A DNA stretch of 64,000 nt, from contig NZ_JQLN01000007.1 of NCBI RefSeq assembly GCF_000744225.1, positions 868,001 to 932,000 of the forward strand, given 5' to 3'. The stretch is from Kitasatospora mediocidica KCTC 9733 (GTDB lineage Bacteria; Actinomycetota; Actinomycetes; Streptomycetales; Streptomycetaceae). Below are positions 1,898 to 38,168 of the stretch, piece after piece; position 1 is the stretch's first letter, and every line of letters starts with the position of its first letter. The notes under the pieces were generated by a model, which saw nothing but the letters and a program-made list of their open reading frames with translations, was not told the origin of the DNA and did not search any database. Both the position numbers and the translations under genes were made by a program.

Positions 1898-4800
1898 TCC
1901 GGATCGTCGGAACACGGTCGCGGTCTTGGAGGCGACACGTTGGACGCGTGCGGCCGCTCTGGTGGCCTTGACCGACGTGACCGCCGCCTTGACCGCCGTG
2001 TTGGCCCCGACGAGGCCGGCCGCCGCGGTGACCGCCATCTCGGCGGCCTTGCCCCAGTTGCCGGTGGCGGCATAGGAGACGGCGGAGACCGCTGCCGCCG
2101 CCGCGCCGATCGGGCCGGGGATGTAGGAGGCGACCTCGGCGACCTTGGCGACCACCTCGACCGTCTTCTTCAGCCACTTGGGCATGCCCCAGTTGCCGTC
2201 GAGGTCGGTGCAGTTGACCGGGTCGCCGGTGCAGTAGTCGTACGCGCCGGCGTTGCCGCCGGGGACCGGGTCGATCTGCAGGAAGCGGCCCAGCGCCGGG
2301 CTGTAGAGCCGGGCGCCCATCAGGATGTCGCCGTCCTGGGCCTCGGCGGAGCGCTGCTTGCCGCCGAGCCAGCCGTAACGGACGGTGCCCTGCCCGGCCT
2401 GCGGGATGCCGAACTCGTCGAAGTCCAGCACCACCGGCCTGGTCAGCGCGGTGTCGGTGGTGACGACCACCGAGCCCTGGAGGTTGGTGAGTTGGAGCTG
2501 CACGTCACCGGTACGGCTGGTGACGGCGGACAGGTCGGCGTCGGGTCCCGAGACGTTGCGGGTCAGCGTGCCCTGGGTGGTGTCCTCGACGACCCAGCGG
2601 ACCTCGTCGGAGTCGTCGCCGTAGTGGTTCAGCTTCGAGGTGGCGTTGGCCCAACTGCCGTCCGCCTGCTTCTTGGACGTGGTGAAGCCGGTCAGCCGGT
2701 GGGCGGCGTCCAGCGCCCACTGCTGCTTGGTGTCCCCCTTCTCCTGCGCGGCGACCTTGTCGTTGGCCCAGTAGGTGGTGGTGGCGCCGGTCGCCGTCTG
2801 CACGGTGCGGCCGAAGGCGTCGTACGCGAAGCCCGCATCGGTCAGCCGGTCGGCGCTGTCGTACGTGTGGTTCTCCCCGACCGTGCCGACCGCGCCACCC
2901 GTGCCGCACGTGCCGTCGGCGTTCTGCGGGGAGGTCGACTTGGCCAGCCGGTTGGAGTGCGCGTCGAAGGCGTACTGCCGGGTGACGCAGCCGGTCGCGG
3001 TCGAGCTCTGCTCGGCCCTGGTCAGCCGGCCCAGCCGGTCGTACTGGTAGGAGCGGGTGGCGGTGGAGCTGGTGTCCTTGGCCACCTGGCCCTGGGTGGA
3101 GATGTCGGTGCTCTGCGCCCAGATCACGGCGCCGTCCGAACTGCGGGTGTAGGTACGGCTGGTGGCCTCACCCACCGCGTTGGCGGTGTCCTTGCGGACG
3201 ATGCCGCCGGGGTAGCTCTGCTCGACCAGCTGGCCGTCCGGCCCGTACGTGGCGGTGAACTCGCCGGCGACGCTGTCGTTGACGGAGGTCACCAGGCCCC
3301 GGGGCTCCTTGGCCCGGTCGTACGTGTAACTGGTGGACCCGGTCGGGTCGGTGACCTTCACCGGCTTGCCGAAGGTGTCGAACTCGGTGCTGGTGGTGGC
3401 GCCGTCGGCGTCCGTGTAGGAGATCAGCCGGCCCAGCACGTCCATCGTCCGCGACAGTGTCCTGCCGCCGGCCGTGGTCTTCAGCGCGTCACCGGTCGCG
3501 GGGTCGTACTCGGTGGTGACCTTCGGCAGTGCCAGGCCCTCGTCCGAGGTGATCTCGGTCGAGGTGATCCGGTCGGCGCCGTCGTAACTGGTGACGGTCT
3601 TGCGGGACTTGCCCGCGTTCGTCTCGGTGGTCTCCTCCGGCTCGCCGAACGGCGAGTAGCGGGTGACCCGCTTGACCGGCAGGGTCGCGGTCATCCGTGA
3701 CGTGTCGGCGCCGGTCACCGCACCGCCGGGGCCGGTCGAGCAGGGCTTGCCCGCCCACTCGGGCCGGTTGCCGCAGGCGGTGTCGTCCGGGTTGGCGCCG
3801 GCCGTGTAGAAGACGGTCTTCACCGTCCCGGCGTCCGTGCCGTTCGAGCCCGGCTTGCGGGACTCCTGGGCCCGGGCCGCGGCGTCGAACCTGATGGTGG
3901 ACGTCAGGTTGGCGCCGAGTGCGTCGGTGGTCACCGAGGTGGCCGTCTTCAGCGTCCAGCCCGGGACACCGCCGATCGGGGCGCCGTAGCCGGTGCGGGT
4001 GACGCGCTGCTCGACGTCGTCGGCGTAGCCGTCGATCCGGGCGCCGTCGATGCTGGTGGTGACCAGGTGGTAGGCCTGCCCGTCGGGCTTGCCCTCGTCG
4101 TAGGTGTTCGTGTTGTGGTCCCGGGCCAGCACCGAAGTACCGACCGCGAGCGAGGGGTTGACGGTGGTCTTGGTGAGCGTGACGGCGTCGATGCCGGCCT
4201 GGAAGAACGGCGCGGCGGCGGCCGGGTTGGTGCCGGTGACGGTCAGCGTGAGCTGGTGGTCGCCGCGCGCCAAGCGGACCGCCTTGCCCGCCGCCCAAGG
4301 AGCCGTGGTGACACCGGGGTTGTAGCCGTCGAAGCTCCCGGGCAGCGTGCTGCCGTCCAGGGCGAAGGTGACGACGCCGTAGTCGCCGGCCTTGGTCAGC
4401 TTGGCCGACAGCAGGTAGTCACCCTCCTCCGGGACGGTGACCCGGAAGGTGGCGTTGTCACCGGCCTTCTTGGCGACCAGCATGATCTGGGCGCCGCCCG
4501 ACCAGCCGCCGTTGCCGACCCACGAGGTGTCGCCGCGCTGGACGGAGACCGGTGCGGTGGAGCCCAGTTGGGGCAGGTTCTCGCCCTCGGCGGTCACCTG
4601 CGCCGGTGCGGTGCCGGCCGCCACCGCCTCGGAGAGCGAGGCGCGGTAGACCGGGCCGAGCGTCTCGGTGACGTCCAGGCCGTCGGGGGTGTAGCCGGTG
4701 CGGGCGTCCAGCAGCCGGGCCCTGGCCGCGGAGTCGGCCGGCAGGCCGAGTTCGGCGACGAACCGGTCGGTGTCCGGGTGGGTGCCGAGCGCGATGGCGC

Positions 4801-35605: not shown

Positions 35606-35625
<20 letters not shown>

Positions 35626-36499
35626 TCCTGGCGCGCAGGCCTGCGGCATCCAGCCCGTAGGCGGCCAGGTGCTCGTCCATCGAGCCGTAGCGCCGGTGCT
35701 CCTCGCGCGGCACGCCCAGGCCCAGCACCCGGTGCGGCAGGTCGGCCAGCGCCTCGTGCGCCGCGTTGTTGGAGGTGCCCGCGAGGTAGGGCTCGACCAG
35801 GACCACGTCCGCCCGCGAGCCGAGCGCGGCGCGCAGGGCGGCGGAGTCGAAGGGACGCACCGAGGCGGCGTAGAGCACGGTGACGTCCAGTCCCTCGGTG
35901 GCCGCCAGCACCGCGTCCAGCATCGGGCCTACGGCCAGCACCACGGCGCCGGTGCCCCGGCGCACCGTCAGGAAGCGGCCCGGCTCGACCGGCTGAGCGG
36001 CGGCGTTCTGGTGTGCGGACAGCCGGACGTAGACGTTGGCGTCGCCGTCCGCCACGGCGTGGCGCAGCAGCACGTCGGCCTCGTCGGTGTGGCCGGGCAC
36101 ATGCACGGTCCAGCCGGGGAGGGTGTCCAGCAGCGCGACGTCCCCCGGGGCCATGTGGGTGCGGCCGCCGGCCGGCCAGTCGTACGAGCCCAGCGCGCTC
36201 ACCAGCACCGCGCCCACGCCCTGGTGGCCCAGGTCCAGCTTGACCTGCTCGAAGGGCCGCTCGACCAGGAAGCTGGCGAAGGTGTGGGCGATCGGCCGCA
36301 TCCCGGTCAGTGCCAGCCCGGCGGCCGTGCCGATCAGCAACTGCTCACGGATGCCGACGTTGACCACCCGGTCCGGGTGCCGGCGCGCCACCTCGGCGAA
36401 GCCGGTGGTGCCGATGTCGGCGAGCACCACGGCGGTCCTCGGGTCCTGCTCCAGCAGCTCGCTGGTGACGACGGCGAAACGCTCGCGCATGGTTTCCAT
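35606..36499 (-). CDS. Transketolase-like C-terminal subunit, 297 aa
   Basis: The pyrimidine-binding and C-terminal domains of a split transketolase: RVVNVGIREQLLIGTAAGLA contains the conserved Glu that activates thiamine diphosphate; FASFLVERPFEQVKLDLGHQ follows, and residues 175-297 are the C-terminal domain. ATG at 36499 (METMRERFAVV) has AGGGGG 9 nt upstream and lies 23 bp after the partner subunit. Works only as a complex with the N-terminal subunit. Such two-gene enzymes can act on xylulose-type donors or on pathway-specific sugars; the substrate is unknown. Placement behind a SoxR-type promoter suggests redox-induced pentose phosphate flux. Confidence 0.9.
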
Positions 36500-36522
36500 T
36501 GCGAAATCCCCCTCTGGGACAG

Positions 36523-37221
36523 TCAGTTCTTGGTCTCGACCTGGGCGACCACCGCATGCGGCCGGCCGGGGTGCGGTGCGGTGAACGCCTCGAACAGCGC
36601 CTCGTGGTCGCGGCCGTCGACGGTGCGCGCCGACCAGCCGGCCGCCTCGAAGCGGGCCGCGATGCCGCCCGACCAGCCGTGCGTGGCCGAGGAGTTGTCG
36701 ATGGCCACCACATGCAACCGGTCCAAGCCGGCCGCGCCGGCGAAGGCCAGCGCCTCGTGGTTGCTGCCCTCGTCGAACTCCGCGTCGCCGATCAGCGTCC
36801 AGACGGCCGGGTCGGTGAGCCCCTGGGCCCGCAGGCCGAGCGCGCTGCCGACCGCCAACGGCAGGCCGTGGCCGAGCGAGCCGGAGCCGATCTCGACGCC
36901 CGGGACGAGCAACCGGTCCGGGTGGTGGCCCAGCGGCGAGTCGTACCCGCCGAAGCCGGGCAGCAGCTCGACCGGCAGGAAGCCCTTGGCGGCCAGCACC
37001 GCGTAGTAGGCCATCGGGCCGTGGCCCTTGGAGAGCAGGAAGCGGTCCCGGTCGGGTGCGTCCACGGTGGCCGGGGTGACCCGCAGCACCCGGTCGTAGA
37101 GCACCCAGAGCGCGTCCAGGGTGGAGGTGGCGGCCGGGCCGTGCTTCTCGTCCCCGGTCATCAGGCCCATCAGGCCCGGCAGGTCCTGGAACCCGTGGGA
37201 GTGGATCTCGGTGGTGGTCAT
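36523..37221 (-). CDS. Transketolase-like N-terminal (ThDP-binding) subunit, 232 aa
   Basis: The pyrophosphate-binding half of a split transketolase: RFLLSKGHGPMAYYAVLAAK is the GHG sugar-binding motif, and GDAEFDEGSNHEAL... VVAIDNSS is the metal/ThDP motif (GDxE...N). Start ATG at 37221 (MTTTEIHSHGF): a -10-like CAGGAT ends 6 bp before it and no ribosome site exists, so the mRNA is probably leaderless, starting at the A of ATG. First gene of a two-gene operon with the C-terminal subunit; divergent from soxR. Confidence 0.9.
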   Translation of the reverse strand: MTTTEIHSHGFQDLPGLMGLMTGDEKHGPAATSTLDALWVLYDRVLRVTPATVDAPDRDRFLLSKGHGPMAYYAVLAAKGFLPVELLPGFGGYDSPLGHHPDRLLVPGVEIGSGSLGHGLPLAVGSALGLRAQGLTDPAVWTLIGDAEFDEGSNHEALAFAGAAGLDRLHVVAIDNSSATHGWSGGIAARFEAAGWSARTVDGRDHEALFEAFTAPHPGRPHAVVAQVETKN

Positions 37222-37227
37222 GAGGGA

Positions 37228-37258
37228 ATCCTGCAACTTCAAGCCGACTTGAAGTCAA
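37228..37258 (-). promoter_or_regulatory. SoxR-type promoter of the split transketolase operon
   Basis: On the minus strand: -35 TTGACT (37258-37253), exactly 19 bp spacer, -10 CAGGAT (37233-37228), then 6 bp to the ATG. The spacer holds the perfect inverted repeat ACTTCAAGCCGACTTGAAGT (37236-37255; 8-bp arms). A long 19-bp spacer with the operator inside is the hallmark of MerR-family activated promoters, and CTTCAAG arms fit SoxR boxes. Confidence 0.75.
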
Positions 37259-37276
37259 GCCCTAGACTGACTCCCC

Positions 37277-37729
37277 ATGGGACCCTCGCGCCACGACCGG
37301 CTGACCATCGGTGAACTCTCCGCCCGCAGCGGCCTGGCGACCTCGGCGCTGCGCTACTACGAGGAGCTCGGGCTGATCCACTCCGAGCGGACGGCCGGCG
37401 GCCAACGCCGCTTCGCCCGCCAGGCGCTGCGCCGGGTGGCCTTCGTCCGCGCCGCCCAACGGGTCGGCCTCTCGCTGGACGAGGCGGGCGCCGCCCTGGC
37501 CGGGCTGCCGGTGGACCGCTCGCCCACGGCGACCGAGTGGAGCCGGGTGGCCCGGACCTGGCAGTCCCGGATCGACGAGCAGATCGAGGACCTGCGCCGG
37601 CTGCGCGACCACCTGACCGGCTGCATCGGCTGCGGCTGCCTCTCGCTGGGCACCTGCGCGCTCTACAACCCGCACGACGTCCAGGGCGCCGACGGCCCCG
37701 GCGCCCGCAAGCTTCTGCCGTCCCGCTGA
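37277..37729 (+). CDS. soxR: Redox-sensing activator SoxR, 150 aa
   Basis: MerR-family regulator with helix-turn-helix TIGELSARSGLATSALRYYE (10-29) and the 2Fe-2S cluster motif C116-IG-C119-G-C121-LSLGT-C127, the exact SoxR spacing. Oxidation of the cluster by redox-cycling compounds, in Streptomyces often the cell's own pigments or antibiotics, turns SoxR into an activator. ATG at 37277 lies 8 bp after TAGACT, so the transcript may be leaderless too. The divergent neighbour with a SoxR-type promoter is the probable target. Normal length. Confidence 0.95.
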   Translation: MGPSRHDRLTIGELSARSGLATSALRYYEELGLIHSERTAGGQRRFARQALRRVAFVRAAQRVGLSLDEAGAALAGLPVDRSPTATEWSRVARTWQSRIDEQIEDLRRLRDHLTGCIGCGCLSLGTCALYNPHDVQGADGPGARKLLPSR

Positions 37730-37757: not shown

Positions 37758-38168
37758 ATGTCGATGATCGCCCTCACCACCCTGCTCGTCCGCGACTACG
37801 ACGAGGCCATCGCCTTCTACGTCGGCGCGCTCGGCTTCGAGCTGCGCGAGGACTCCCCGCGCGCGGACGGCGGGCGGTGGGTGGTGGTCGCCCCGCGCGG
37901 TGCGCGCGAGGGCGGCCTGCTGCTGGCCCGGCCCGGCAAGGCCGAGCAGCGGGCGCGGATCGGCAACCAGACCGGCGGGCGGGTCGGCTGGTTCCTGCAC
38001 ACCGACGACTTCGCGGCCGACCACCGGCGGATGGCCGACGCGGGGGTGCGCTTCCTGGAGGAGCCCAGGCACGAGCCGTACGGGACGGTCGCGGTCTTCG
38101 CCGACCTCTACGGCAACCGCTGGGACCTGCTGGAGGTCACCCCGTCAGACGCTCCCACGCCTTCTTGA
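37758..38168 (+). CDS. VOC (glyoxalase/bleomycin resistance) family protein, 136 aa
   Basis: Two beta-alpha-beta-beta-beta modules: [20 protein letters not shown] at the start and [20 protein letters not shown] then [13 protein letters not shown] at the end, the typical VOC pattern with Glu in the last strand as metal ligand. It starts 28 bp after soxR in the same direction and may be co-transcribed, which would link it to oxidative stress or detoxification. Its end overlaps the convergent coaE by 32 bp. Substrate unknown. Confidence 0.85.

Follow-up and report, generated by a model that had tools for sequence, protein, structure and literature searches.

A stretch of 64,000 nucleotides from Kitasatospora mediocidica KCTC 9733 (contig NZ_JQLN01000007.1, positions 868,001 to 932,000; hereafter the window) carries a soxR gene divergent from two genes for the subunits of a split transketolase, here called TK-N and TK-C. 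The promoter facing this pair is of SoxR type and is kept, in nearly invariant form, in almost all of the related gene pairs compared. Comparative evidence makes it highly probable that SoxR switches on TK-N and TK-C, and a role like that of Rif15, an enzyme acting on rifamycin S, is the best current explanation for this SoxR-linked transketolase. The finding is far wider than one locus, and the target has been hinted at in print before.

The soxR gene (soxR1; 37277-37729, + strand) encodes a MerR-family [2Fe-2S] regulator of 150 aa, which scores well above the cut-off of the curated SoxR model TIGR01950 (E 3.2e-58; 195.5 bits vs. 116.9) and whose translation contains the cysteine motif CIGCGCLSLGTC, in agreement with the CX2CXCX5C pattern of the SoxR [2Fe-2S] cluster. 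On the opposite strand, with 55 bases separating the two start codons, TK-N (36523-37221, - strand; 232 aa) encodes the subunit that binds thiamine diphosphate (ThDP) and matches PF00456 (E 1.9e-25, 90 bits vs. a gathering score of 22), while TK-C (35606-36499, - strand; 297 aa) encodes the pyrimidine-binding and C-terminal domains, matching PF02779 (E 1.4e-26, 93.6 vs. 27 bits) and PF02780 (E 2.7e-7, 31 vs. 25.9 bits). The arrangement proposed in the initial annotation, soxR divergent from a two-subunit transketolase, is thus borne out. The closest named relative of TK-N, within the best 80 of at least 534 related stretches, is that of Kitasatospora sp. MAA4 (97%).

Read along the TK strand (-), the promoter consists of a -35 hexamer TTGACT (37258-37253), a spacer of 19 bp and a -10 hexamer CAGGAT (37233-37228), both hexamers being supported by the relatives as well as by the sequence; 6 nt further on comes the ATG of TK-N (37221-37219), at which a leaderless transcript is predicted to begin. 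The SoxR box, counted with the -35 hexamer, is TTGACTTCAAGTCGGCTTGAAGT (37236-37258, - strand). Its dyad, the 20-mer ACTTCAAGTCGGCTTGAAGT (37236-37255), has the layout ACTTCAAG-TCGG-CTTGAAGT. It had been described as a perfect 20-bp inverted repeat lying within the spacer; its 8-bp arms are indeed perfect, but the 20-mer is symmetric at 18 of its 20 positions and reaches 3 bp into the -35 hexamer. A soxbox dyad in a 19-bp spacer is what is expected of a SoxR-activated promoter, the reference architecture being that described in PMC4411124. On the + strand a possible -10 hexamer of soxR itself, TAGACT (37263-37268), read from sequence only, stands 8 nt ahead of the soxR ATG; the box would overlap the soxR promoter, so that autorepression is possible by analogy with soxR-mfsA of S. 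maltophilia (PMC4411124).

Searched across the 8.68-Mb genome with up to 3 mismatches, the promoter-type pattern TTGACYTSAAGN4CTTSARGT gives 4 and 3 matches on the two strands, against none on either strand for the reversed control, and its only two exact matches are the TK site and a site beside a second soxR gene. A rigid pattern with fixed half-sites gave no match at all and missed even the window's own site. The second SoxR (TIGR01950, 178.6 bits; contig C4, about 640.3-641.2 kb, L012:1036-1917) is divergent from a gene for an FdxA-type ferredoxin (NF045480, 183.5 bits), which is faced by a perfect soxbox, TTGACCTCAAGGTTACTTGAGGT, followed by TACGGT at 19 bp.

The same promoter recurs among the relatives. 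In the best 80 loci from a scan of named genomes, TK-C lies 3' of TK-N in 80/80 (three being cut by a contig end); soxR is divergent in 22, while in 58 the fetched flank (up to 4 kb) contains none. Yet 55 of these 58 soxR-less loci have, just upstream of TK-N, a soxbox that deviates at no more than 3 positions, vs. 5 of 1069 control stretches. An exact AAG-N4-CTT rule missed most Streptomyces sites, and the mismatch-tolerant rule was used in its place. TK-N is present in 74 of 121 genomes of the organism's own family, in 53 of 394 genomes of the class (19 of 138 genera) and, with the protein of locus L208 as query, in 188 of 250 genomes of family f37. A census of 245 loci, from which 29 duplicates were removed, left 216 distinct copies, which were scored with a box matrix for which 57 of the 58 soxR-less sites served as training data; 990 control windows supplied the threshold, set at their 99.5th percentile.

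By this measure the box is found in 211 of the 216 copies, in all nine family codes that have the enzyme, and in 153 of the 158 copies outside the 58 of the training set. By set, it occurs in 58/58 training copies, in 22/22 of a second set, in 52/52 copies from the own family, in 32/32 class genomes outside that family (one copy per enzyme-bearing genome), in 47/48 copies of the partly hand-chosen f37 set and in 0/4 extra copies from gene clusters (L204, L205, L206 and L208). The first four -35 positions over the 211 sites are T (211), T (211), G (207) and A (210), and exactly 19 bp away there is always a hexamer of the form NANNNT. A start codon, ATG in 208 cases and otherwise GTG, follows the -10 hexamer at 6-7 nt in 211/211. 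A leaderless message requires a constant distance of this kind, and the leaderless start, as well as the proposal that the first ATG falls at the expected transcription start, is therefore supported by the comparison. Site, spacing and start of the TK promoter may accordingly be regarded as shown at the level of sequence conservation.

Five control windows exceeded the threshold, the top two with scores of 19.3 (L236) and 6.7 (L219), the remaining three being one repeated sequence that scored 1.1. The sites in L236 (about 3368-3660) and L219 (about 632-920, both on the TK strand) are soxbox-like, and each has next to it a soxR gene, at 1.7 and 0.6 kb from TK, respectively; these high controls may be true boxes, soxR having perhaps kept its own once separated from TK. 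The half-sites differ between lineages: many Streptomyces have CCTCAAG, part of f17 has CCTCAAC, and Kitasatospora copies with an adjacent soxR often have CTTCAAG, CTTGAAG or CTTTAAG. These differences perhaps track changes in SoxR specificity.

A second line of evidence is the association with soxR itself: 109 of the 216 copies, from six of the nine family codes, have it in divergent orientation no more than 400 bp away. A soxR gene occurs somewhere in 52 of the 53 enzyme-bearing genomes of the class sample, vs. 172 of the 341 that lack the enzyme (Fisher p 4e-13, ignoring kinship), and in the own-family sample the figures are 74 of 74 vs. 29 of 47 (Fisher p 4e-9, likewise ignoring kinship). 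Together with the box, these figures give strong comparative support to the SoxR control that had been proposed. Some f19 genomes (G216, G289 and G312 in the class search) have four SoxR-type genes above the cut-off. In a neighbour survey of about 154 loci with a crude gene finder, TK-C was recovered in 118, TK-N in 115 and frames of soxR type in 69; after these the commonest neighbour, in 33 loci, is convergent and confined to soxR-less loci, and therefore looks lineage-bound. The conserved neighbours, including a glyoxalase idea, were also considered as a hint to function and set aside.

With regard to the enzyme, the chain of known structure nearest in sequence to TK-N is 6YAK, the N-component of a split-chain transketolase. 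The residues H66, H100, D155, N185, E411 and H473 (E. coli TktA numbering) hold ThDP and Mg in transketolase. The first four are kept in 23/23 aligned sequences (the window's and 22 relatives), H26 in 22/23 (L207 has Y), and E411 and H473 in 183/183 TK-C sequences, which indicates that the catalytic machinery is present. The equivalents of H461, D469 and R520, which in transketolase grip sugar phosphates and the hydroxyls of the aldose, are by comparison absent from 183/183 TK-C sequences, the window's included, as judged against both E. coli TktA (L264) and the canonical transketolase of the same genome (L001), which keeps all three. TK-N also stops ahead of the segment bearing H261 in 23/23. 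This loss is not explained by splitting, because the two-chain transketolase of Carboxydothermus hydrogenoformans (6YAJ/6YAK), alike in its division into subunits, keeps the three equivalents in an alignment read by eye, with its THAG...GEDGASHQ and LGR residues, which the window's family is without. The S385 column falls in a loop of differing length. R358, which contacts the substrate phosphate in E. coli transketolase, appeared in 183/183 sequences in one run and 18/183 in a repeat of the same alignment, at an unstable alignment edge, and its retention is therefore not usable as an argument. The score against the NCBIfam transketolase equivalog is 121.5 bits vs. 488, from models made for full-length single-chain proteins.

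The five copies without the box point to what kind of enzyme this may be. Three (L204, L205 and L206) have YcaO/JmjC-type surroundings and two (L208 and L270, 88% identical to each other) have rifamycin-type ones, and 5 of 5 cluster copies show the same three losses of H461, D469 and R520. Judged from its genes, the L208 region is a rifamycin-type cluster: it encodes a 3-amino-5-hydroxybenzoic acid (AHBA) synthase (match to 1B9H, E 7.6e-230), a class II dehydroquinase, a thioesterase, a methyltransferase and an arylamine N-acetyltransferase-type protein, which we read as the amide synthase, as well as polyketide synthase-like genes recognised by eye. The two TK genes of L208 overlap by 4 bp, and rif15a and rif15b are likewise reported to overlap (PMC6002545). 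The window pair is 63% and 59% identical to the L208 pair (L208/L252), and resembles Rif15 as described in PMC6002545 in its two adjacent genes, its retained ThDP residues and its loss of H461, D469 and R520; this likeness rests on the cluster copy L208 rather than on the A. mediterranei sequence. The setting differs, the Rif15-type copies L208 and L270 having no soxbox and lying in a biosynthetic cluster, whereas the window pair forms a soxR-TK unit outside any rifamycin cluster, with soxR and a trehalohydrolase-like gene (translation read by eye) as its neighbours.

According to PMC6002545, Rif15 draws a C2 unit from ketose phosphates and attaches it at the C-4 ketone of rifamycin S, so that an ester is formed; rifamycin SV, which is the reduced form, is not accepted. 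The nearest chemically known enzyme type, therefore, takes an oxidised aromatic ketone and not an aldose. Free trees nest Rif15 in the soxbox family with 96-99% support, on an outgroup branch of about 4-5 changes per column; approximately unbiased (AU) tests give p 0.617 with the rifamycin copies placed outside, 0.607 with the YcaO-cluster copies outside and 0.024 with both outside. The first tree was built from 98 loci less L075 and L237, and the trees for the AU tests were chosen subsets of 50, 47 and 48 rows. Given these AU results and the long root branch, only kinship is claimed for Rif15; that it is nested within, or descended from, the SoxR-linked enzymes was considered and dropped as a claim.

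The Rif15-like pairs come from two f37 genomes, G210 (L208, L251, L252 and L265-L268), in which the rifamycin-type cluster was checked, and G626 (L270/L299), and both genomes carry a soxR-linked TK pair as well (L207 and L300, respectively). L204-L206 are soxbox-less paralogues of the TK pair, 68-72% identical in TK-N. The neighbours of L204 are confirmed as a YcaO gene and two JmjC_2 genes; around L205 and L206 similar neighbours and transport genes were read by eye, and the one L205 neighbour that was scanned matched no family. These surroundings may belong to a biosynthetic cluster of peptide type in which a ketol transferase is employed.

Put together, SoxR would bind the dyad of the TK promoter, where the 19-bp spacer is longer than usual, and redox-active compounds would oxidise its iron-sulphur cluster and so twist the promoter, whereupon RNA polymerase would start at or beside the A of the ATG and produce a leaderless TK-N/TK-C message. 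The two subunits would then assemble into a Rif15-type ThDP enzyme, with a ketose phosphate as donor of a C2 ketol unit and a non-sugar compound as acceptor, probably a quinone-like compound or another electrophile. That acceptor would be akin to the compounds to which SoxR responds, and the role would therefore be one of tailoring or detoxification rather than of pentose phosphate flux. We lean slightly towards this explanation as a whole, a SoxR-induced Rif15-like transferase working on a redox-active, non-sugar acceptor; the nature of the acceptor, taken by itself, is a credible suggestion to which we would give somewhat less than an even chance.

Several observations weigh against this explanation. 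No divergent soxR stands within 400 bp of 107 of the 216 copies, for which action of SoxR in trans therefore has to be inferred, and one enzyme-bearing genome of the class sample (G156, a draft of about 470 contigs) has no detected soxR. When the -35 hexamer is left out, a soxbox pattern with 2 mismatches is at noise level in the window's genome (10 and 10 strand matches vs. 24 and 24 for the reversed control); the case therefore rests on the whole promoter and its conservation rather than on the dyad, and that search was not used for naming further targets. In a sequence comparison with solved structures, TK-C matches DXS chains best and the split transketolase 6YAJ comes fifth, and the roles given above to H461, D469 and R520 are general background on transketolase. 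A position of Rif15 as sister to the soxbox family is compatible with the AU test (p 0.617), the root lying on a very long branch. Rif15 is also slow (kcat 2.2e-2 per min; PMC6002545), which is easier to reconcile with tailoring than with bulk detoxification. Finally, the searches brought up no data on binding, expression or enzyme activity for the TK family.

As for the promoter, it can hardly be that dyad and hexamers are a product of chance or serve soxR alone: the loose dyad search, being at noise level, would suit that idea, but the -35, spacing, -10 and start are conserved in 211 of 216 copies, 102 of which have no divergent soxR within 400 bp. It is very unlikely, although a little less so, that another MerR-family regulator reads the promoter wherever soxR is not adjacent, with SoxR controlling only part of the family. 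Such a regulator would account for the 58 of 80 loci without soxR in the fetched flanks (up to 4 kb) and for half-sites that there often depart from CCTCAAG/CTTGAGG, e.g., CCTCAAC and GTTGAGG. However, no other MerR gene was detected beside the soxR-less copies with two SoxR proteins and the open frames from six other loci of MerR type as probes (E 1e-3), soxR is somewhere in 52 of the 53 class genomes with the enzyme, and SoxR of S. maltophilia itself binds CCTCAACTGCAGTTGAGG, a box with the half-site CCTCAAC (PMC4411124).

On the side of the enzyme, an ordinary sugar transketolase under SoxR, moving pentose and hexose phosphate carbon and replacing or boosting the housekeeping enzyme in redox stress, would suit the transketolase domains and the ThDP residues. 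The three residues lost in all 183 sequences, the early end of TK-N and the presence of L001 elsewhere in the genome speak against it, and transketolase itself produces no NADPH. We consider this unlikely; the connection that the initial annotation drew with pentose phosphate flux and NADPH supply is not supported, and that reading of the SoxR-linked enzyme is weak, the nearest characterised type being Rif15. About equally improbable is a ketol or acyl transferase acting not on quinones but on the small reactive carbonyls of redox stress, such as glycolaldehyde, formaldehyde or dicarbonyls. The altered acceptor pocket could suit other small electrophiles, TK-C is as DXS-like as it is transketolase-like, and an open reading frame of the glyoxalase/bleomycin-resistance family (window 37758-38168) lies 28 bp 3' of soxR; yet this neighbour is not among the 16 largest neighbour clusters of other TK loci, and actinomycete SoxR is known for its response to redox-active antibiotics (PMC4146615).

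The previous hint in print concerns SAV_1623 of S. avermitilis, a 'putative transketolase' to which a footnote to Table 4 of PMC4146615 assigns a conserved SoxR site. Compared by description, as a transketolase with a SoxR site, it is probably of the same family as the window enzyme. That entry is a one-line prediction for one species, in which two subunits, spacing, wider conservation and Rif15 go unmentioned. The supposition that the target was new has to be qualified to this extent, while a literature search thin on subscription papers, which extended to SoxR in other actinomycete genera and to transketolase with quinones, found no SoxR-transketolase link beyond the footnote. The six-gene SoxR regulon of S. 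coelicolor, as given in PMC4146615, is similar in its regulator family, its soxbox logic and its targets, which modify or export small molecules; in contrast, there is no transketolase among the six, and the window's genome shows only two exact promoter-type soxboxes. About 13% of Streptomyces soxR genes are stated to have a potential soxbox upstream (PMC4146615), and we would suppose that part of these may be the boxes of divergent TK genes. Another counterpart is the soxR-mfsA pair of S. maltophilia (PMC4411124), likewise divergent, with the SoxR box between -35 and -10, a 19-bp spacer and the box adjoining the soxR start; the target there is an exporter, unlike TK, and SoxR binding and induction have been demonstrated.

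The targets known for SoxR in antibiotic producers are oxidoreductases and exporters whose substrates are uncertain. A sharper handle on its role there is provided by a carbon-transfer enzyme that stands, across nine family codes, under a single SoxR-type promoter with hardly any variation. A bolder proposal, speculative and on balance doubtful, is that a quinone-capping transketolase is one of the most constant SoxR targets in actinomycetes, placing a C2 ketol unit, drawn from ketoses of central metabolism, on the carbonyl of redox-active quinones to form hydroquinone esters unable to redox-cycle, and that Rif15 is such a stress enzyme recruited into antibiotic synthesis. The enzyme is small, has two subunits and probably uses common sugar phosphates as donors, and the idea is therefore directly testable. 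If the enzyme does cap quinones, this would be a new route to defusing redox-cycling antibiotics, and it could explain where the odd chemistry of Rif15 came from.

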